A DNA stretch of 64,000 nt from NCBI GenBank assembly GCA_013152475.1, contig JAADGH010000108.1, positions 1 to 64,000 of the forward strand, given 5' to 3'. Below the pieces are notes generated by a model. The model saw only the letters and a program-made list of their open reading frames with translations. It did not search any database and was not told the DNA's origin. This DNA is from Planctomycetota bacterium. GTDB taxonomy: Bacteria > Planctomycetota > Brocadiia > JAADGH01. The translations under genes were made by a program, and so were the position numbers. Positions 23,095 through 58,612 of the stretch are shown in pieces (position 1 is the first letter of the stretch; each line of letters starts with the position of its first letter).

Positions 23095-26000
23095 TCACGG
23101 CTTCACATCGAACACAATCTCGCTCTCGATCGGGTCGCCGTTCGGAACGCCCACACCCTCGGCGTAAAGCCAGTTTGGCGGCTGGGTGAAGACCGTCGTG
23201 GCGATCCGCGACGAGCACTTCCGCCCGTCGGCCAGTTCCAGTTCCACCCAAAAGCCGCGGATTTTGAAACAGTCCTTGCCAGGGTTCAGGATTTTCAATG
23301 CGTTGCGCGGTTTGAGCGACCGGATGACCTCCGCGGGTAGCTCCACGGTCGCGATCTTGCTCCAGACGTTTTTCGTCTCACTGGCGCCTTCGCCGCTCGG
23401 CAGGTTGCCGATCACCACGCCGTTGATCTCGGCCTTGGAGATGTACGATCCGCTGCATTGGAGTCCCTGTTCCTCGTAGTGGAACCACCCCCGCTTCGCC
23501 TTGCAGACTTGGTCGAGGGTCAGCCCGGGAACGGGGTGCGGCCCCGGCTCGTAGGCCAGGCGGACCGGATGATCGTGAAGCGTGGTCACTAAGACCGGCG
23601 TCTTCGTCTCGATCTTGAATGCCGCCCAGCAGGCCCAGTCGCCGGACGAGTTGTCGGCGGGGCCCACGTCGGTGATGAGCTTGATGCGGACCGTCTTTCC
23701 CGCCCAGGGAGACAGGTCGCCCATCAGCGGCGTCCAGGCATGTTTGATCCACTGTTTCTCGGCAATGATCGTCTCCTTAGCCTTTTCATCCACAACAGCC
23801 ACCCGAAAGAGAATGCCATCGCCGGGGTCGCTGCCATCGCCCTTGCCGATGAAACATCGAAACACGCCTTTCGGCTCAAGGGGCAGTGGGATCGGCTTGA
23901 ACAATGCAAAGCTATAACCGACACCGCCCATATAGGGCGGATGCATGAAGATGCCGTTCTTGGTTTGGTTACCGCAAGTCATGCCCCGGCGTTCGTGCAC
24001 ATTGCTGCGGTTCGCAGGGATCAGGCACGTTTCTTTGCCCTTGCGGAGGCATTGGCCAGACTCAAACTCCTCGGAGAGCGCGGCGATCTCGCGCACAGCC
24101 TCTTCGGACCTCAGCCACCAGCTTTTCTCAACGGCAAATTCGCCAAGCGTGAGCTTCAGCTTGATCTCCCTCACACACTCTTTGTCCGGGGCAGTGAAGG
24201 GGAGCGTTACGGCCTTCGTCTCGCCGGGAGCGAGATCGACTGCGCGCTCCTTCCCGTCCAGGACCGCCGTGCCCCTCGCCTGGACGGGCAGATTGCTCGT
24301 AAGCGTCAGGTGGTAGGCATCGTCCAACGTGAGCGTGGCATCGACCACAGGCAGGACGGTGAAGTCGATCCATGCGCCCTCGAACTGCTGCCAGAGCTGC
24401 TGGCCGCGCTTCGCGTCCGGGGGGATACGGAAGTCATGTGCTTGCTTGCCGGTCACCTTGACCGCCTCGCCGGGCACGACCCGAACGCGGTTACATTTCA
24501 GTGTGACAGCCGGCGGAGCGACGGGTGTAAGGAGATAGCTGAAAGCCCCTTCCTTCGGCATCACGTAAACAAGCCCTCGGCTGAGCCGCGTCTCGACCGG
24601 ACCGAGCTCCTTGTATTCTTTGTCGAGGGCGATGGCCGTCGCGCCCTTTCCCTCGAGCGATACGCCGAACGATCTGGGGGTTCCTACCGGGATCACTTCG
24701 ACCTTGCCATCGGTCCGCTTTAGGGCAATGACCGCTGCATCACTGGCCGCTTTGGGGAATCGGGTGAAGACACCCCGACCATCGCAGTAATCGTAAGCGG
24801 GTGATTGACAATAATCCGCGCGGTGGCCATCCTTAATCGCGCTGAAGACGACCAGCTTTCCATCGGCGCTCTTCGCGAAATATCCGTTCGGGGGCAGTTC
24901 GGCATCAGGGATCTTCCACGTGTCTTTTGTATGGCCGTTTACCCACACTCTCAATCCATTGGAGTAGGTGGTGGCGATCTGTGAGCGTTTGTATGCGCCC
25001 GTCGCCACGGCGCTGCTTGTGTCGAGCAGATCGCCCTTTTTATTCGCATACCGTATGTCCGTCGCCGTCTCCTCGGCGTAGTTCTTGTGCAGTTGTTGGA
25101 GCAGATAGTAGCTTCGGACGGTGTTCCGGATGCCCCCGGCTCGAACAAGGAATCCCGTGTGGCCGAAGGCGATCGTAGCGGCCAGAAAGCGGTCCAGCTT
25201 TCGCTCCTGCTCCGCTCGGCCCGATCCCATTCCCTCGTGTCGGCCATAGAACATGCCCGGGTTGCCCATGCCGAAGTTGCAGCACAGGGGATGCATCTTT
25301 CGCAGGTCGAAATCGACGAGCCAGGGATTTTTCGCAGGTCTGTATTTTTGATCCTGGCCGTAATTGCCGTCGGTCAGACCGCAATAGTAGTAGTGATTGT
25401 TCCCTTCGCTGTAAACCGGCCCGTTCCACACCCGCTTCTGGTGAAGCATGATCTCGCCATAGGGATAGAATTGCGCGATAAACGTTCCGGCCCCGGGCAC
25501 GCGGGCGTCGTAGTCCTCCCTGCCCCAGGGCGTGACGGCGGTGTGGACGTCGCAGTAGGCCGTGCTGAGCTTGAACTTCTCCTGGATGATCGGCGTAAGC
25601 TTGGCCTCGTACTCCACCGCACGGGTCGGCTTCGGCGCGTAGCAGCGCGCCCAGGCCGTCTGCCAGTCGCCGTTGGAGCGCCGGTTGACCATGTCCTCGT
25701 CCCAGTGCCCGTTCACGGGGGCAAAGTCGGTGTAATTGTTGTAGATGCCGTAGCGAAAGCCGAGGGCGTGGAGCTTGCGCGAGTATTCCTTCTGGCTTGC
25801 ATCGCCGCCCTTCTTCGGCGCGGTTTTTGTCCGAAAGGTGAAGCTCTCGCCGCCGTCGCGCCAGCCGGTTTCGTGATCGGTGATGACGACCTTGGTCATG
25901 CCATATCGGGCAACGCCCTTCCAGTAGTCATAATCCCGCTCCCGGTTGCTCGCCCCGTGGGCGCGCCAGAGCCGTTCGCCGGCGACATGCATCCACGGCG

Positions 26001-27444
26001 ACTTCGGATTAGGGATGTTGGGGAGAATTTCCTCGAAGCACGGCGAGACCGTCAGGAAGAGCCGCTCGAAACAGTCGTTTCGCTTGCCGTCGGTCTTCGG
26101 GGTATACACCGCGCCGCCGTTGTAGGTCACGCCGTCTTTCGCCGTGCGATTCACGAACGTCAAGGCCGAGGCGTTCGAGCGATAGTAGTCCATCAACGCC
26201 GTGACGAACAGCGGCTTGTCCGGCTTGCCGGTGACCAGCACGGCAGGCCGGTCCTTGGCTCCCACGAGATAGGGAATCGTGACGAGGCGAGGATTGTCCA
26301 CGCCGACAGCGCGTCCGATGACGAACTCGCCGACCTGCCCACCGGGGCACTTGACATCGACCACCAGCGACTTCTGCCACAGGCGGAAGGTGTAGGTCAC
26401 GTCCATTGTCCGCTGGCCCAGGCCGACGCGCCACAAGGCAATGACCGTGTCGCCGACCCGCTCGCAGCCCAAGAGGTCGAAGCGGTCGGGCGGGACGGCC
26501 TTGTCGTCCTCGGCGAAGTAGACCCCTCCGTCCGCCATGGGCTGGAACCGTCGGGCGAGCCACCCGCCCCACTTCGCCGTCACGTCACTGAGGGTCCCCG
26601 TCTTCGGCTCGTAGCGGTACTCCAGTTCGCCGTCGTTCCCTTTGTAGCGAAAGACGTAGGCATTCCCTTCCTTCGTCAGGCTTGTCCTGAACTTCTGCGT
26701 CAGGTTGTCGGGCAGAATGGTTTGCTCGCGCGTCGGAAAGGGCAACCGGCCCTTGCCGGTATACACGCCCGGGTCCTGGCCGGGGAAGAGGTCGATGCCG
26801 CGCTTCGGACGGGGGACGAAGGTGAGCGGCTTGAGTGCCTCCCGATAGAAGGCAAGGTTATCGAAGTAGAGGACGCGGTCCTTTTCGTTGTGGCAGTTGG
26901 TGACGCGGATGCCCGCGAAGGACGCGCCGTCCTTGAGCACGGCAAGCTGCTCCGGCTGGAGCTTCTTGTGCATCACCCACCACTCCTTCCAACGGACGCT
27001 GCCGAGAGAGATCTGCAATTCCTTCCCGTCCTTGGCCTGGAGGAGGATGTGGATGCCGACGCGCGGCGTGGTCAGGTCCTGGCGCCACGCCCAGTTGTTT
27101 CCGTAAACCCAAAAGTTTACGCAGTCGAAGGGTGCTGGGATGGGAATCGGCTTGGGCGGGCGGACGGTGAGCTCCGCCCTGCGCGACGTGCCGCGATAGA
27201 CCAGTTTGCCCACATACTTCCCCCAGAGCTGCTGCTCGCGCGAGCGGGTAATCGTGGCGACGGCGTCCTTCGTCTCGACCCTCCAGCCGCCGAGGTTCTC
27301 GAAGTCTACGAGTGGGGGATGATCGGGCTTCGTGCGATTGGCCCAGACCATCTCGTATGGTCGCTCGCCCACCTTTTCGTCGGCAGTAATCTGGGCAACG
27401 ATAAAAAGGCAAGACAGGACAGCAAGACAGAACACGATTCTCAT
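23095..27444 (-). CDS. large secreted multidomain protein, probable glycoside hydrolase
   Basis: 1449 residues with a signal peptide (MRIVFCLAVLSCLFIVAQIT, then ADEK). The N-terminal ~210 residues look like a carbohydrate-binding beta-sandwich (VDFENLGGW...YFDNLAFY). The centre (about 490-900) looks like a TIM-barrel glycosidase: GMTKVVITDHETGW, LGFRYGIYNNYTDFAP, STAYCDVHTA and MLHQKRVWNGPVYSEG, with many acidic residues on strand ends. The C-terminal ~450 residues are beta-rich, with Ig-like parts and another sandwich. No CAZy family could be assigned by eye. The ATG follows GGAAGT. Confidence 0.7.
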   Translation of the reverse strand: MRIVFCLAVLSCLFIVAQITADEKVGERPYEMVWANRTKPDHPPLVDFENLGGWRVETKDAVATITRSREQQLWGKYVGKLVYRGTSRRAELTVRPPKPIPIPAPFDCVNFWVYGNNWAWRQDLTTPRVGIHILLQAKDGKELQISLGSVRWKEWWVMHKKLQPEQLAVLKDGASFAGIRVTNCHNEKDRVLYFDNLAFYREALKPLTFVPRPKRGIDLFPGQDPGVYTGKGRLPFPTREQTILPDNLTQKFRTSLTKEGNAYVFRYKGNDGELEYRYEPKTGTLSDVTAKWGGWLARRFQPMADGGVYFAEDDKAVPPDRFDLLGCERVGDTVIALWRVGLGQRTMDVTYTFRLWQKSLVVDVKCPGGQVGEFVIGRAVGVDNPRLVTIPYLVGAKDRPAVLVTGKPDKPLFVTALMDYYRSNASALTFVNRTAKDGVTYNGGAVYTPKTDGKRNDCFERLFLTVSPCFEEILPNIPNPKSPWMHVAGERLWRAHGASNRERDYDYWKGVARYGMTKVVITDHETGWRDGGESFTFRTKTAPKKGGDASQKEYSRKLHALGFRYGIYNNYTDFAPVNGHWDEDMVNRRSNGDWQTAWARCYAPKPTRAVEYEAKLTPIIQEKFKLSTAYCDVHTAVTPWGREDYDARVPGAGTFIAQFYPYGEIMLHQKRVWNGPVYSEGNNHYYYCGLTDGNYGQDQKYRPAKNPWLVDFDLRKMHPLCCNFGMGNPGMFYGRHEGMGSGRAEQERKLDRFLAATIAFGHTGFLVRAGGIRNTVRSYYLLQQLHKNYAEETATDIRYANKKGDLLDTSSAVATGAYKRSQIATTYSNGLRVWVNGHTKDTWKIPDAELPPNGYFAKSADGKLVVFSAIKDGHRADYCQSPAYDYCDGRGVFTRFPKAASDAAVIALKRTDGKVEVIPVGTPRSFGVSLEGKGATAIALDKEYKELGPVETRLSRGLVYVMPKEGAFSYLLTPVAPPAVTLKCNRVRVVPGEAVKVTGKQAHDFRIPPDAKRGQQLWQQFEGAWIDFTVLPVVDATLTLDDAYHLTLTSNLPVQARGTAVLDGKERAVDLAPGETKAVTLPFTAPDKECVREIKLKLTLGEFAVEKSWWLRSEEAVREIAALSEEFESGQCLRKGKETCLIPANRSNVHERRGMTCGNQTKNGIFMHPPYMGGVGYSFALFKPIPLPLEPKGVFRCFIGKGDGSDPGDGILFRVAVVDEKAKETIIAEKQWIKHAWTPLMGDLSPWAGKTVRIKLITDVGPADNSSGDWACWAAFKIETKTPVLVTTLHDHPVRLAYEPGPHPVPGLTLDQVCKAKRGWFHYEEQGLQCSGSYISKAEINGVVIGNLPSGEGASETKNVWSKIATVELPAEVIRSLKPRNALKILNPGKDCFKIRGFWVELELADGRKCSSRIATTVFTQPPNWLYAEGVGVPNGDPIESEIVFDVKP

Positions 27445-27674: not shown

Positions 27675-27702
27675 TTGACAAGCACTGCACGTGTGCTATA
27701 CT
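27675..27702 (+). promoter_or_regulatory. sigma-70-like promoter of the retron
   Basis: TTGACA (27675-27680), 16-bp spacer, TATACT (27697-27702). The expected start, about seven bases on, falls at 27709, the first base of the a1 arm of the retron RNA. Confidence 0.75.
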
Positions 27703-27708
27703 TTCCTC

Positions 27709-27841
27709 AGGTGGCGGGCCGAGAGAGTTTTAGATTTGTGCGGCGATTCGCCGTGCGTGCGCTTTGCGCCATCAACCAGCCTTTGTTCCTGCTGAGAGCA
27801 GGAACGCAGAATGGATGCATAGTAAAACCGGTCCGCCACCT
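27709..27841 (+). ncRNA. retron msr-msd RNA
   Basis: 133 bases. The ends form the a1/a2 pair: AGGTGGCGGGCCG (27709-27721) with CGGTCCGCCACCT (27829-27841), 13 bp with one G-U. Inside are two short hairpins with three-base loops (27741-27753, loop ATT; 27759-27769, loop TTT), as in msr. A 9-bp hairpin follows, GTTCCTGCT/AGCAGGAAC with loop GAG (27785-27805), as in msd. The reverse transcriptase gene starts 23 bases later. The exact branching G and msDNA length cannot be read from sequence alone. Confidence 0.78.
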
Positions 27842-27864
27842 CTTTCTATCCGCAAAGGTTCGCC

Positions 27865-28977
27865 ATGGGATTTCTCGATTGGTTCCTGCGAAAGATCATC
27901 AAGCCGAAAGTCCTTGATGGCTGGGCGCGGGCCAGACGCCGTGGCCAGATCAACGCCCTGCGCAAGAAGCGCGAGCGCGCCCGGGCCATCTGCATGCTCC
28001 CGCAGGACGGCCGGCTCCCCACACGCAAGGCCCGCAACCCCATGACGGGCCGGACCATCGAGGTCGAATACGACGACGGTCTGAAGGGCATCGCCAAGGC
28101 CCTGGGCCTTAAGCCCAGCCGTGTGGCGAAGCTGTCCTTCTCGCCGAAGAAGCTCTACACCACCTTCACCCGCCCCAAGCCCGCCGGCGGCGAGCGCACC
28201 ATCCACGCGCCGGTGCGGTCGCTGAAATACGTGCAGCGCCGTATCCTCGACCGCATCCTCAACTGGGTCGATCTGCCCGACTGCGTCCACGGCTTCCGCC
28301 GCTACCGCTCCCTGGCCACGGGCGCGGCCGAACACGTGGGCAAGGAGATGGTCCTCCGGATGGACATCGAGGACTTCTTCCCCTCCATCCACTTCGGCCG
28401 GGTGCTGGGGCTCTTCCGGTCGCTCCAGTTCTCGACCAAACATGCCTTCATTCTTGCGAGATTGACCACCGCCGACGGCGTTCTGCCCCAGGGCGCGCCG
28501 ACGTCGCCGGCCATCGCCAACGCCGTGTGTCGCCGCCTCGACCGCAGGCTCATGGGCGCTGCGCAGAAGCAGGGAATTTCTTACACGCGATATGCCGACG
28601 ACATGACCTTCTCCGGCCCGGCGGAGGAGGTGAAGCGTCTGGTCCCCTTCGTCCGGAAGGTGGTCGGAGAGGAAGGGTTCACAGTGGCCGACAAGAAGGT
28701 CCGCCTCATGCGCCGGGGCCGCCGCCAGATCGTGACGGGTGTGGTGGTGAACGACAAGCTGAGCGTGCCCCGCTACTACCGCCGCTGGCTGCGCGCGACC
28801 ATCCATCACCTGCGCACCAGGGGCGCCACCCCCGACGGCCTCACCGCCGCCCAGCTCCGCTCCTCCCTCCTCAGCCACGCCCACTACATCAAGATGGTCA
28901 ACGCCGACCAGGGCAATCGCCTCCTGGCGGACCTGCGGGAGGTGCTTGGGCAGCAGGGCGGAAAGGGTAATAGGTGA
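27865..28977 (+). CDS. retron-type reverse transcriptase
   Basis: 370 residues. RT motifs in order: R-T-I-H-A-P near 111, HGFRRYRS near 142, catalytic Asp in RMDIEDFFPSIHF (167), LPQGAPTSPAIANAV (207-221), YTRYADDMTFSG with the YADD box (243-246) and the retron hallmark VTGVVVN (290-296). The fingers-palm order matches bacterial retrons rather than group II introns: there is no maturase or endonuclease. Residues 1-85 form a basic extension of unknown role. No toxin-like effector is fused or adjacent, so the immune output is not evident. Confidence 0.92.
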   Translation: MGFLDWFLRKIIKPKVLDGWARARRRGQINALRKKRERARAICMLPQDGRLPTRKARNPMTGRTIEVEYDDGLKGIAKALGLKPSRVAKLSFSPKKLYTTFTRPKPAGGERTIHAPVRSLKYVQRRILDRILNWVDLPDCVHGFRRYRSLATGAAEHVGKEMVLRMDIEDFFPSIHFGRVLGLFRSLQFSTKHAFILARLTTADGVLPQGAPTSPAIANAVCRRLDRRLMGAAQKQGISYTRYADDMTFSGPAEEVKRLVPFVRKVVGEEGFTVADKKVRLMRRGRRQIVTGVVVNDKLSVPRYYRRWLRATIHHLRTRGATPDGLTAAQLRSSLLSHAHYIKMVNADQGNRLLADLREVLGQQGGKGNR

Positions 28978-28982
28978 CACGA

Positions 28983-29065
28983 TGCAGCCGCAGGCTTTAC
29001 GCCTGCGGGAAGATCGCGCCCATAAAGGGCGCGGCTACAAATGCCCGGTTTCGGATAGGTCCTTA
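28983..29065. repeat. dispersed palindromic repeat, copy 2
   Basis: Starts six bases after the reverse transcriptase stop. Stems CCGCAGGC/GCCTGCGG and CGCGCCC/GGGCGCG, then GGTTTCGGATAGGTCCTTA, the same end motif as the element at 7267-7372. Confidence 0.6.
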
Positions 29066-29162
29066 GAGTCCCCATGGATGAGTTGCTGATGCCGACTGAT
29101 ATGGTTATCTTCTCCCGCTTCCTCGCGTTTGCACTGGAAGCAGAGGCCGAAAGGTGCCCGTA

Positions 29163-30770
29163 ATGGCTGAGATCAGGCTGGTCGAGGGAGGGCAGAGCAA
29201 GTATTCGATCCTCGTTGCTGAGGATGCACCGAGGCCGATCCGTTTCGCGGCCCAGGAACTTCAGCGGTATGTACAGGAGATCAGCGGGGCGGCATTGCCG
29301 ATCACGTCGGAAGGCGACGGCAACCCGGCTATCCTCGTTTGTACAAACGACGACTCGGCCCCGGCGCTCCACGATCGTGGTGAGGATGCCTATGCCATGC
29401 GAACGGACGGCGATCAGATCGTCCTCGCCGGCAACTCACCCCACGCGTGCGTCTATGTCGTTTATCACTTTCTCGAAAAACATCTGGGCTGTGGCTGGTG
29501 TGCACCGGGGGAGGATACCGTGCCGAAGCAGGCGACAATCCGCCTATCCCCTTTCCACGATGTGATCGGCCCCCCAGCCTTCGCCATGCGCCAGATCATC
29601 CTTTTCCCCTACGGCGGGGAATGGCTGGTCATGAACAACATGCTCCACACCGACTGGATGGCAAAGAACCGTCTGAACTGGGCCCACCCCGCGCCGAACG
29701 CCCCGCGCGTGTGGGAACACAACCGGTCGGACCTGATCTTCACACCCGAGGTGACAAAGCGGGGGTTGCGCCTCGAAGTGGGCGGGCACGCCTTCAACAT
29801 CTGGGTCCCGAACGACCGCTATGCGGACCATCCGGAATACTTCGCGCAGATCGAGGACGGATCACGGACCACCGACGGCTCCCACGAGGCGGGTTTATGT
29901 ATCTCGAATCCGGACGTGGCGGAGGTGGTGGCGGAGAACATGACCCAATGGCTCGACGCCAACCCCGAGGTCGATGCCGTCGATCTCTGGCACAACGACT
30001 CGCACACCTACTGCCTCTGTCCCGACTGCACGCCGCCGGGCCTGCCCGAGGACGAGGCGAAGATGGCCTACACGCGCACCTACATCCGCTTCGTCAACGA
30101 GGTCACTGAGCGGGTGGTGCGGAAGCACCCGGATGTGCTCGTCAATCTCCTCGCCTACTTCCACACGATGGTTCTCCCCGACAACGCCGAGCCGCTGCAC
30201 GACAACGTCCTCGTCGGCCTGTGCCTCTTTCCGCGTCCGGGGCAGCGGACGATGCGGCCCATCGAGACATCCGATCAGCACCGCGACGTGGCGTTCCGCA
30301 AACAGCTTGTCCGGTGGCCGGAAGTTGCGAAGAACTTTTATGTTTACGAGTACTATACCGTGGGGGAACGATACAAGCTGTGGTCAATGGTGTCGATGAT
30401 CTGCGAAGACATGCGTTACTTCCACCGGCTTGGCATCACGGGCATCTCGTCCGACCAATGGGGCCCCGGCTGGTATCCGCTGAACATGTATGCCTATGGA
30501 AAGCTTGCCTGGAACCCCAACCTGACGCCCGAGGAGATCATCGCCGATTTCTGTACGCGCACCTACGACGGCGCGGCGGACGCGATGATGGACTACTGGA
30601 ATCTCCTGGAGGAAGGTCTGCGCGAGTCCTGGACCACCCAAGACCCCATCAACTGGCGCGACGACCAGCGCCGCGAGGTCATCAGGAAAGCCCTGTCACA
30701 AGCCGGCGATGACCAGGTCGATAAGCGCATCCGCGACGCGGCGGCGCTGCATCAGTTGGCCGGCCTTTGA
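29163..30770 (+). CDS. DUF4838 family protein
   Basis: 535 residues, no signal peptide seen. The N-terminal ~110 residues (EDAPRPIRFAAQELQRYVQEISG...YFLEKHLGCGWCAPGEDTVP) match the alpha-glucuronidase-like N-domain that precedes DUF4838. The rest (WLDANPEVDAVDLWHNDSHTYCLCPDCT; GISSDQWGPGWYPLNMYAYGKL) is DUF4838-like, a TIM-barrel-related domain with a Cys pair. Members occur with polysaccharide-degrading genes. The function is probably glycan processing. The ATG at 29163 has GAAAGG upstream; an in-frame GTG is nine bases earlier. Confidence 0.8.
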   Translation: MAEIRLVEGGQSKYSILVAEDAPRPIRFAAQELQRYVQEISGAALPITSEGDGNPAILVCTNDDSAPALHDRGEDAYAMRTDGDQIVLAGNSPHACVYVVYHFLEKHLGCGWCAPGEDTVPKQATIRLSPFHDVIGPPAFAMRQIILFPYGGEWLVMNNMLHTDWMAKNRLNWAHPAPNAPRVWEHNRSDLIFTPEVTKRGLRLEVGGHAFNIWVPNDRYADHPEYFAQIEDGSRTTDGSHEAGLCISNPDVAEVVAENMTQWLDANPEVDAVDLWHNDSHTYCLCPDCTPPGLPEDEAKMAYTRTYIRFVNEVTERVVRKHPDVLVNLLAYFHTMVLPDNAEPLHDNVLVGLCLFPRPGQRTMRPIETSDQHRDVAFRKQLVRWPEVAKNFYVYEYYTVGERYKLWSMVSMICEDMRYFHRLGITGISSDQWGPGWYPLNMYAYGKLAWNPNLTPEEIIADFCTRTYDGAADAMMDYWNLLEEGLRESWTTQDPINWRDDQRREVIRKALSQAGDDQVDKRIRDAAALHQLAGL

Positions 30771-49003: not shown

Positions 49004-49071
49004 GACTAATGGACTATGGAATGGGAGCACATGTGCCTCGTGGCACACGGATTGGGAGCAAGGAAACAACG

Positions 49072-50871
49072 ATGAAGCACGGCAGAAACCGATTCCTGGC
49101 GTTTCTCGTTGTACTGTGCATAGTCTGGCCCATCGCGAGGACGACAACCGCGCAGGGGCTCCGCATCTCCGCCCAGCCGGTTCGCATCCTGCAGGCAAAG
49201 AAAGAGAACCACGCCATCGCCTTCAGCCCCGACGGCAAATACATGGCCGTCGCCGGGGAGGGCGATTGGAAACACTCGATCACGATCTTCGAAATGCCCC
49301 TCGGCCGGCAGGTCCTCACGATGTACGGCCACACCAACCGCATCAACGGCTTGGTCTTTACTCTCGACAGCCAGCATCTGATCTCCGGCAGCAGCGACAA
49401 GACCCTCCGCGTCTGGGAGGTCGCCTCCGGCGCGCAGGTGCGGCAGGCGCAGGACATCCAGGAAATCCGCGGCATCGCCTATGTCCCCGGCGGCAAGTTT
49501 CTCGTGTCGGCCGGGACAGAATCCGCCGTCACGCTCTGGGAGGCGGACACCCTTGCCATGAAGGGCCAGATCCATCGCGCCACGCGCTGGATTCAGGGCG
49601 TGGCCATGAGCCCCGATGGCACGATCGCGGCAGCGGGGAGCGACGACAGCACCGTCGCCATCCTGAATCTTGCCGGCGGTGGGGTCATGCGAACACTCGA
49701 TGGGGGCGAGGACGAGACGCTCTGCGTCGCCATCAGTCCCGACGGGAAGTACATCGCCTGCGGGAACGAGGACGAATCGGTGAGGCAGTGGATCCTGCCC
49801 GGTTTCCTGGGGCCCAAGGTCTTGGCCGGACACGAGAACGACGTCATCAGTGTCGCCTACTCGGCTGACGGACGTTATCTTGCATCGGGTTCACGGGATC
49901 ACTCGGTAATCGTGTGGGACGCGGACGCGGGCATGAGGGTGCAACGGCTGGCCGTGGACGCCGATCCGTGGTCGCTGGCATTCAGCCCCGGTGGGGAGTT
50001 CCTGGCTGTGGGCACGAGCGACAAGGGCGTGCGCCTCTACGGGCTGGAGGGCATTGGGGCGGCGGTCGTCATCGCACGGAAATCCACGGGCTCGGACATT
50101 CGACTACTCAACCCCGACAAATTGCAGTTGGACACGAGCGGGCCAAAGATCATGGTGACCGGCCTGGTGAGCGATCCGGAGGGGATCACGCGGGTGTCCA
50201 TCAACGGCCTCGACGCGCGCCTGGCGGAGCCTACGCCGCAGGACATTGAGAAGTACGGAAAAGAGCACAAGCTCTATCGCTTCATCGGCGAGGCCCTTCT
50301 GGTGCAGGGCGAGAACCGCGTGCAAATCGCGGCCATCGATGCAAAGGGCAATGTGACCGAGAAGATGATCATCGTGAACCGCCTGATCGGCACGGTGGAC
50401 CCCGACGGCACGCAGCGCCTGACGCACACCTCGACCGTGACGCGAACGCAACCGCTCGGGAAAAAGATCAAGATCGCTGTGCTGGACCTCGATGCGCAGG
50501 GTGTGACCCCCGTGACGGCGCAGGTGCTCTCCGAGGCCCTGCGAACGTCGCTCTACAACTCGGGGCGTTTCCGCGTGATGAACCGGAAGGATGTGGACAA
50601 GGTGCTCCGCGAGAAGGCCTTCGAGCGCACGGAAACCTTCGCGAACACGACAAGCGACCAGATCGCGAAAATGGGGACCGCCCTCGGCGTGGAGAAGATG
50701 GTCACCGGCAGCATCGGCTTGTTGGGCCGGACCTACGCGGTTAATCTGCGCATGGTTGATGTCGCCTCCCACGAAAACGAGCGCATCGTCTCCGAGCGCT
50801 ACAGCGGCGCCGAAGACGGCCTATTCCAAACCATCGAAGCGGCCGCGCGGAGGCTGGTGGCGGGCTACTGA
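49072..50871 (+). CDS. exported WD40-repeat protein with CsgG/FlgO-like C-terminal domain
   Basis: 599 residues with signal peptide (FLAFLVVLCIVWPIARTTTA). Residues about 45-330 form seven WD40-type blades (repeats ending in ITIFE, LRVWEV, VTLWEA, IVWDAD). A linker domain (SDPEGITRVSINGLDARL...) follows. Residues about 462-599 match the CsgG/FlgO fold: KIKIAVLDLDAQGVTP, LSEALRTSLYNSGRFRVMNR and ALGVEKMVTGSIGLLG. The pair suggests an envelope-localised scaffold that senses or assembles surface structures. The ATG at 49072 follows AAGGAAAC. Confidence 0.87.
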   Translation: MKHGRNRFLAFLVVLCIVWPIARTTTAQGLRISAQPVRILQAKKENHAIAFSPDGKYMAVAGEGDWKHSITIFEMPLGRQVLTMYGHTNRINGLVFTLDSQHLISGSSDKTLRVWEVASGAQVRQAQDIQEIRGIAYVPGGKFLVSAGTESAVTLWEADTLAMKGQIHRATRWIQGVAMSPDGTIAAAGSDDSTVAILNLAGGGVMRTLDGGEDETLCVAISPDGKYIACGNEDESVRQWILPGFLGPKVLAGHENDVISVAYSADGRYLASGSRDHSVIVWDADAGMRVQRLAVDADPWSLAFSPGGEFLAVGTSDKGVRLYGLEGIGAAVVIARKSTGSDIRLLNPDKLQLDTSGPKIMVTGLVSDPEGITRVSINGLDARLAEPTPQDIEKYGKEHKLYRFIGEALLVQGENRVQIAAIDAKGNVTEKMIIVNRLIGTVDPDGTQRLTHTSTVTRTQPLGKKIKIAVLDLDAQGVTPVTAQVLSEALRTSLYNSGRFRVMNRKDVDKVLREKAFERTETFANTTSDQIAKMGTALGVEKMVTGSIGLLGRTYAVNLRMVDVASHENERIVSERYSGAEDGLFQTIEAAARRLVAGY

Positions 50872-57097: not shown

Positions 57098-58612
57098 ATG
57101 GTCAAAGACAAACAACCTACATCCTCTCGGGCTTCCGCCGAACTACAGGCATTGATCGACGTCTTGGCCGAGATCAGTGGCAGCCTCAACCTTGAAGAGT
57201 CCATGCCGCGCATCATGCAGGCCGTGGCCGATGCCATGAACGCCGAGGCCGCGTCTCTGCTCATGCTGGATCGCTCCACGAGCAACCTGCACTTCAAGGC
57301 CGCCGTGGGCGATAAGGCGGAGGAGATTACGACCCTGTCCCTCGGACCGGGCGAAGGCATCGTGGGGTGGGTCGCACAGAACGGTCAGCCTCTGCTTGTC
57401 AAGGACGCATCGGACGACCCGCGACACCGGCGCGACGTCGCCGAGTCGCTCAACTTCCCCTGCAAATCCGTCGTCGCCGTCCCGATTTTCGACGGGGAGA
57501 AGGTCATCGGGGCCGTCGAGGTCATGAACCCCATCGGCAACCAGCCCTTCGACGAACAGAGCATCGAATACCTTACCGCCCTCAGCCGTCTCCTCTCCAT
57601 CGCCATCCTGAATGCGAAGGCCTATGCCGCCCTGCGCGATGAGGTGACCGAACTGCGCTCCGCGCTGGAAGTGCGCAGAACCATCATCGGGCAGCACCCG
57701 TCGATCCAGGAGGCCCTGGACCTCGTTCGCAAGACGTCGCCCTTCGATGTAACGGTCCTCATCACCGGTGAGAGCGGCACAGGGAAGGAACTGATCGCCC
57801 GGGCCCTGCATGAGCTCAGCCCGCGAGCGAAGGGGCCTTTCGTCGCCGTCAACTGCACCGCCATGCCCGACACTCTCCTCGAGTCGGAGCTCTTCGGTCA
57901 CGAGAAAGGCGCGTTCACTGACGCCGCCAAGTTGCGCAAGGGGAAGTTCGAGCTTGCCTCCGGCGGGACACTCTTCCTCGATGAAGTCGGCGACATGAGC
58001 GACGCCGCCCAGGCGAAGGTCCTCCGCGCCATTGAGGAGCGGAAGTTCGAGCGCGTCGGAGGCATGGAGCCGATCGAGGTGGACGTCCGAATCGTCGCGG
58101 CCACGAATAAAGATCTGGCCGAGATGATCAAGAACGGCAAGTTCCGGCAGGACCTGTTCTACCGGCTGAACGAGTTGCCCATCTCGCTGCCGCCGCTGCG
58201 CCAGCGCGGGGAGGATATCCCTCTCCTGGCCGAACACTTCATCCAGGAGTTTTCCGAACAGTTCGGTAAGAAGGTAAAGGAACTGGACGAGCGGGCGCGG
58301 CAACTGATGCTGCAGTACGACTGGCCGGGCAATATCCGGGAGCTGCGTAACGTCATCAAGGGCGCCATCATCCTGAGCGACAGCGACACCATCACCGCCC
58401 AGCATCTACCCATGCATATCCGCCAGGCCTCGGCCCTGGCGAAGGGCGCCGCCGAGCCGGAGGGGTCTCTGCAAGCCGCCGAGCACATCCAGATACTCAC
58501 CGTCCTGGAGGAAACCGGCTGGAACAAGAGCCAGGCGGCCAAGACGCTCGGTATCTCCCGCCCGACGCTCGACGCCAAGATCAAGAAATACAACATCCAG
58601 AAAGAAGAGTAA
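57098..58612 (+). CDS. GAF-domain sigma-54-dependent transcriptional activator
   Basis: 504 residues. N-terminal GAF (about 20-175), AAA+ activator domain (about 195-430) with GESGTGKE, GTLFLDEVGDM and the R-finger region, and a Fis-type helix-turn-helix (WNKSQAAKTLGISRPTLDAK). The sigma-54 contact loop again reads GAFTDA. No receiver, so it responds to a small ligand via GAF rather than phosphorylation. GAGG precedes the ATG. Next gene is an SDR. Confidence 0.94.
   Translation: MVKDKQPTSSRASAELQALIDVLAEISGSLNLEESMPRIMQAVADAMNAEAASLLMLDRSTSNLHFKAAVGDKAEEITTLSLGPGEGIVGWVAQNGQPLLVKDASDDPRHRRDVAESLNFPCKSVVAVPIFDGEKVIGAVEVMNPIGNQPFDEQSIEYLTALSRLLSIAILNAKAYAALRDEVTELRSALEVRRTIIGQHPSIQEALDLVRKTSPFDVTVLITGESGTGKELIARALHELSPRAKGPFVAVNCTAMPDTLLESELFGHEKGAFTDAAKLRKGKFELASGGTLFLDEVGDMSDAAQAKVLRAIEERKFERVGGMEPIEVDVRIVAATNKDLAEMIKNGKFRQDLFYRLNELPISLPPLRQRGEDIPLLAEHFIQEFSEQFGKKVKELDERARQLMLQYDWPGNIRELRNVIKGAIILSDSDTITAQHLPMHIRQASALAKGAAEPEGSLQAAEHIQILTVLEETGWNKSQAAKTLGISRPTLDAKIKKYNIQKEE

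Follow-up and report, generated by a model that had tools for sequence, protein, structure and literature searches.

The window, a stretch of 64,000 nucleotides from a planctomycete contig, contains a conserved pair of non-coding RNA and reverse transcriptase (RT), with no effector gene beside it. The retron identity of this locus is near certain. We suggest, with a probability of about 0.55, that it is an intact-looking solo retron whose RT N-terminus tethers the RT-msDNA complex to the membrane, and that phage would be sensed there. Direct reading of the contig confirmed, almost to the base, the order of promoter, msr-msd RNA and RT. The features are as follows, all on the + strand:

27675..27702, +, sigma-70-type promoter: TTGACA at 27675-27680, 16-nt spacer, TATACT at 27697-27702
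27709..27841, +, msr-msd non-coding RNA, 133 nt (fold, covariance model, paired changes)
27709..27721, +, a1 arm AGGTGGCGGGCCG, 13 pairs with a2
27728..27733, +, TTTTAG with the presumed priming (2'-5' branch) guanosine, G27733
27738..27756, +, msr hairpin GTGCGGCG-ATT-CGCCGTGC, eight pairs
27759..27769, +, small hairpin GCGC-TTT-GCGC (predicted fold)
27785..27805, +, msd hairpin GTTCCTGCT-GAG-AGCAGGAAC, presumed template of the msDNA stem (predicted fold)
27821..27828, +, AGTAAAAC ahead of a2; relatives have a GTAA-like block before a2
27829..27841, +, a2 arm CGGTCCGCCACCT, 13 pairs with a1
27865..28977, +, retron RT, 370 aa (PADLOC RT_XIII, Pfam RVT_1, Ec86, fold)
27865..27903, +, RT residues 1-13, MGFLDWFLRKIIK, putative membrane-targeting segment (motif, hydrophobic moment)
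27904..28083, +, RT residues 14-73, basic arm, modelled as a helix to about residue 41 and disordered beyond
28084..28956, +, RT core, residues 74-364, with QGAPTSP, YADD and VTG (PADLOC match range, alignment)

The promoter matches 11 of 12 consensus letters, and 6 nt separate its -10 box from a1, in agreement with the initial annotation, which had placed the transcript start at the first base of a1. The nearest relative (locus L001) has TTGACA and GATAAT, again 11 of 12 letters, at an identical distance from a1. Of 12 related loci, 8 have a -10-like box 6-8 nt ahead of a1, and several of these boxes match the consensus poorly. The 13-bp a1/a2 pair and the three hairpins within 133 bases were both found where they had been described. 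The RNA folds at -66.2 kcal/mol, whereas shuffled versions average -45.2 (z = -5.1; 0 of 200 shuffles), and when the upstream region was shuffled 200 times, an a1/a2 stem of equal strength around TTAG and GTA never arose. The genome holds a single copy of the RNA, for which an Rfam scan gave no match. In the Ec86 RNA, UUAG stands behind a1 and GUAA ahead of a2, as in the window RNA, and UUAG behind a1 was found again in relatives. By analogy with Ec86, G27733 would be the branch guanosine, and the msDNA would measure closer to 45-65 nt than to the 60-80 nt proposed earlier; DNA synthesis probably begins immediately 5' of AGTAAAAC.

The non-coding RNA is conserved as RNA. MAFFT alignments put the stems in the wrong place, and for this reason we aligned the RNAs with a covariance model (R1) that had the window RNA alone as its source. 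R1 located the corresponding element ahead of the RT in each of the four nearest relatives (L001, L002, L047 and L046), and these were the top four among its nine matches in 631 kb, the fourth with an E of only 0.026. In the R1-derived alignment, which leans towards structure because it was fitted to structure, 97.5% of cells pair, and changes on both sides occur in 16 of 30 pairs, a result equalled by 0 of 500 shuffles; when partners are shifted by 1-3 columns, pairing falls to 38-49%. Double changes affect 11 of the 13 a1/a2 pairs and 5 of the 9 pairs of the msd hairpin, where only two sequences align, and in five relatives all cells of the msr hairpin are paired (100%), with one-sided changes only. 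A test with swapped a1 and a2 arms was weak, since the stems had been picked for pairing, and the paired-change count is the cleaner test. The initial annotation had looked to homologues for a1/a2 pairing, and there it is kept via compensatory change. Of eight further candidates that a second model (R2) gave at E<1 over 876 kb, seven are weak; all eight sit on the strand of the RT, no more than about 0.8 kb upstream of its core.

The RT reading frame begins with the ATG at 27865, 23 nt past a2, and stops at 28977; this start, together with the YADD and VTG motifs, is as first described. The best PADLOC model is RT_XIII at 328 bits; models of other retron types come next, the group II intron model reaches 52 bits, and there is a match to Pfam RVT_1. 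Among PDB sequences, Ec86 matches best (2e-41). The AlphaFold2 model has a mean pLDDT of 84, and its 18 best PDB fold matches are all retron RTs (Ec86, Foldseek 2.4e-23). Sequence, profile, tree and fold thus agree in placing the RT inside the retron clade, a placement the initial annotation had left to phylogeny. QGAPTSP is present as well. The NAxxH position reads GAAEH, a departure that speaks against the solo retron reading; in L001 it reads NALPH. The genome has one such RT, and a search of viral contigs with it returned no relatives. Right behind the RT stop lies a GC-rich palindrome, gccgcaggctttacgcctgcgg (28983-29010, +), without a T run, which might mark the end of the retron unit.

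The most unusual part of the protein is its N-terminus. The basic extension noted at first is real (19 K+R versus 8 D+E in residues 1-70), although it runs to about 73 residues ahead of the core and not about 85, and the membrane-type motif at its start, the more unusual feature, had been overlooked. Secondary structure and pLDDT give a helix at residues 3-41 with modest confidence and low confidence over 38-69. Solo RTs begin either with a transmembrane helix or with a short hydrophobic/aromatic motif, MG[FLI][FL]D.., the latter in the window RT, L001 (MGIFDKLFGRKK), L017 (MGILDWLARLLRG), L048 (MGLFDFLKDLFNP) and L009 (MGLFDWLFGKKKK). In its strict form the motif is present at 18 of the 73 RT loci without SWIM, at 2 of the 19 with SWIM, and at 0 of 6,017 control start codons, taken in frame from neighbouring ORFs. 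These counts should be read knowing that the pattern was written after some of the sequences were known, that related loci are not independent, and that start codons are uncertain in GC-rich loci. Two of three SWIM-bearing RTs (L035, L039 and L089) have a membrane-type start, L039 with MGFFDFLRRLFGGG and L089 with MGLFRTLQRLFGFD; the motif is therefore not confined to solo retrons. In hydrophobic moment over residues 2-12, a span picked after an 18-residue test had given no support, the window lies in the top 6% of 258 control N-termini, and 16 selected solo N-termini average the top 7% of the same controls. The membrane tether has against it that over 18 residues the window N-terminus is unremarkable, and that those of L009 and L065 are so even over 11. 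Clear N-terminal transmembrane segments replace MG[FL]FD in one planctomycete sister lineage of short retron-like RTs (L038, L043, L062, L095, L099, L100, L101, L103, L104, L109, L112 and L115), whose non-coding RNAs were mostly not found by scan or model. An amphipathic helix that binds the membrane is already known from FtsY (Parlitz 2007, cited in PMC2780400). We infer from these sequence features, which lend it support, that the RT N-terminus probably targets the membrane; a partial literature search found no paper on membrane-tethered retron RTs.

We propose that the promoter at 27675-27702 would drive a transcript starting at a1, and that the 133-nt RNA would fold with a1 paired to a2 and be bound by the RT. 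The 2'-OH of guanosine 27733 in TTTTAG would then prime synthesis, and with the msd hairpin as template the RT would make a short branched msDNA, some 45-65 nt long. The N-terminal hydrophobic/aromatic segment and the flexible basic arm most likely hold RT and msDNA at the inner face of the cytoplasmic membrane. Sensing of phage there by the msDNA would be the likeliest function, and the only local output would be the tether segment or the membrane-placed RT complex.

In the usual model a retron comprises an RT, a non-coding RNA and a toxin, and a large toxin-less group raises the question of its function. This group has been kept over great distance, with the RNA covarying and the RT intact, and its recurrent membrane-type N-terminus offers a testable answer, namely that solo retrons act at the membrane. 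Through this group, Planctomycetota would also become a source of compact two-part msDNA producers.

The flanks of the retron supply no effector. The gene at 23095-27444 encodes 1,449 aa, to which no Pfam family matches at E<=0.01, that at 29154-30770 is a DUF4838 gene, as already annotated and now confirmed by Pfam, and neither matches a PADLOC family. PADLOC matches among the other ORFs of the window comprise RtcR-like regulators, a partial HEAT-ARM match about 20 kb off and a few weak ones, with no retron effector beside the RT. We considered the HEAT-ARM protein (49009-50868, +, 620 aa, about 20 kb away) as a HEAT-ARM_XIII partner at 1.9e-15, on 154 of 1,972 profile positions; many proteins of the same genome match this stretch, and the partner reading was hence dropped. 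WGR and HEAT-ARM matches elsewhere in the genome, examined as distal type XIII partners, are partial and were judged generic repeat matches. One of the regulators, at 57098-58609 (+), is a sigma-54-type activator that matches PADLOC RtcR_PspF2 CARF_AAA_HTH (E 1.6e-114) over profile positions 145-481, the AAA/HTH part only. A profile search found SWIM_XIII absent from the genome, and the case for a missing effector is strong, not final, because the assembly is incomplete (250 contigs; 95% complete, 6.9% contaminated). Clustering the neighbours of 92 surveyed RT loci returned SWIM in 17, WGR-like genes in 7 of that set and otherwise small groups only, and no gene that travels with the solo RTs. 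The flanks differ among relatives (glycosyl hydrolases in L001, metG in L046, dnaE in L055), so the solo state is common to them. The effector-free layout claimed for the window holds there and in most close relatives. The exception is L002, a Lentisphaerae member of the window's own clade, which has a gene for a 926-aa DEAD/ResIII helicase (L002:6809-9586) 32 nt downstream of the RT; this helicase, seen only in L002, is a possible partner and counts against the solo retron reading.

Alternatively, RT and msDNA might hold in check a toxin whose gene lies at another place in the genome, with the N-terminal segment as a docking surface, which we consider rather doubtful. Defence by known multi-gene retrons does depend on an accessory protein (PMC8989520), the modelled helix 3-41 could serve as a binding surface, and the incomplete assembly leaves room for a distant gene. 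Set against this are the lack of SWIM_XIII, the weak and partial nature of the WGR matches and the failure of any gene to accompany the solo RTs across the 92 loci; a transmembrane helix at the same position of the RT is likewise hard to reconcile with docking. It is also conceivable, though unlikely, that across a broad, mainly planctomycetal set of single-gene retrons the membrane-binding or membrane-spanning N-terminus acts as the effector in its own right, and that phage interference with the msDNA would free or rearrange it, harming the membrane. Sensor and killer would then be one RT polypeptide with its RNA.

Even less probable is a role outside defence, or no present role, with vertical inheritance as in myxobacterial retrons and an msDNA that is regulatory or does nothing selectable. 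A review reports evidence from codon usage for vertical inheritance of the myxobacterial retrons and suggests that effector-less retrons may do other jobs (PMC8867640). The same gene also stands beside the retron in some related genomes: L054 and L055, of one family, keep it beside dnaE, which suggests long vertical retention at one site, and L093, L102 and L116 have a common downstream gene. However, a match at E<=1e-40 occurs in only 5 of 75 genomes of the window's class and the nearest relatives, gathered by searches of genome contigs and whole genomes, are only about 50% identical, a sparse occurrence and divergence that suit gain and loss.

The membrane-tethered solo retron that we prefer resembles several known systems. 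Retron-Eco1 (Ec86, type II-A) is similar in RT sequence and fold, and its RNA is also bounded by a1 and a2. Its NDT-like accessory protein (PMC8989520) has no counterpart at the window locus. In Retron-Eco6 (Ec48, type IV) the membrane is likewise involved, through a two-transmembrane accessory protein encoded by a separate gene (PMC8989520), whereas the putative membrane segment of the window lies inside the RT. Retron-Bth1, a lone retron whose RT is interrupted by a group II intron (PMC12548924), and the myxobacterial retrons share with the window an RT and non-coding RNA without obvious effector; unlike the window RT, Retron-Bth1 has no reported membrane-type N-terminus (PMC12548924). Apart from the effector and the altered NAxxH motif, the locus is a retron by every tested feature, and what appears to be new is the N-terminal membrane-type feature.

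We conclude that the window retron is not a member of type XIII, retron types being named here by PADLOC models. In a 55-row tree the window RT groups with L001 (99/91; L080 and L001 are one and the same contig), and then with L017, L018 and L002 (94/86). An 80-row quick tree, built without myxobacterial or Ec107 reference RTs and weak at its deepest split, places this five-member clade (97) outside the 24-row clade (98) of all SWIM-bearing RTs. Type XIII has WGR_XIII/HEAT-ARM_XIII and SWIM_XIII, none of which stands beside the window RT, and the RT_XIII match covers profile positions 117-427 of 469, with the N-terminal part (1-116) unmatched and a different N-terminus in its place. That the locus is a decaying type XIII remnant after loss of the WGR/HEAT-ARM and SWIM genes is highly improbable: RT_XIII is the top profile, type XIII loci L003 and L073 have weakly matching RNAs upstream of the RT, and L088 and L094 lie inside the SWIM clade without SWIM, but the latter two are near contig ends, the window clade is separate, its RT lacks profile part 1-116, and RNA, promoter and RT motifs are intact, with the RNA covarying among solo members. 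The proposal of an unlisted retron type is borne out in part, by the missing type XIII partners and RT_XIII N-terminal part, and weakened by RT_XIII scoring best and by effector-less solo retrons already on record (PMC8867640, PMC12548924). An associated or fused effector is typical of retrons but not universal: PMC8867640 acknowledges retrons that lack effector neighbours, and lone ones still count as retrons (PMC12548924). Two further genomes, both of which also hold intact RTs, contain retron-like RT matches with an in-frame stop (G065:C161:18514-19392, TAA; G233:C305:16493-17404, TGA), which are probably pseudogenes or assembly errors.
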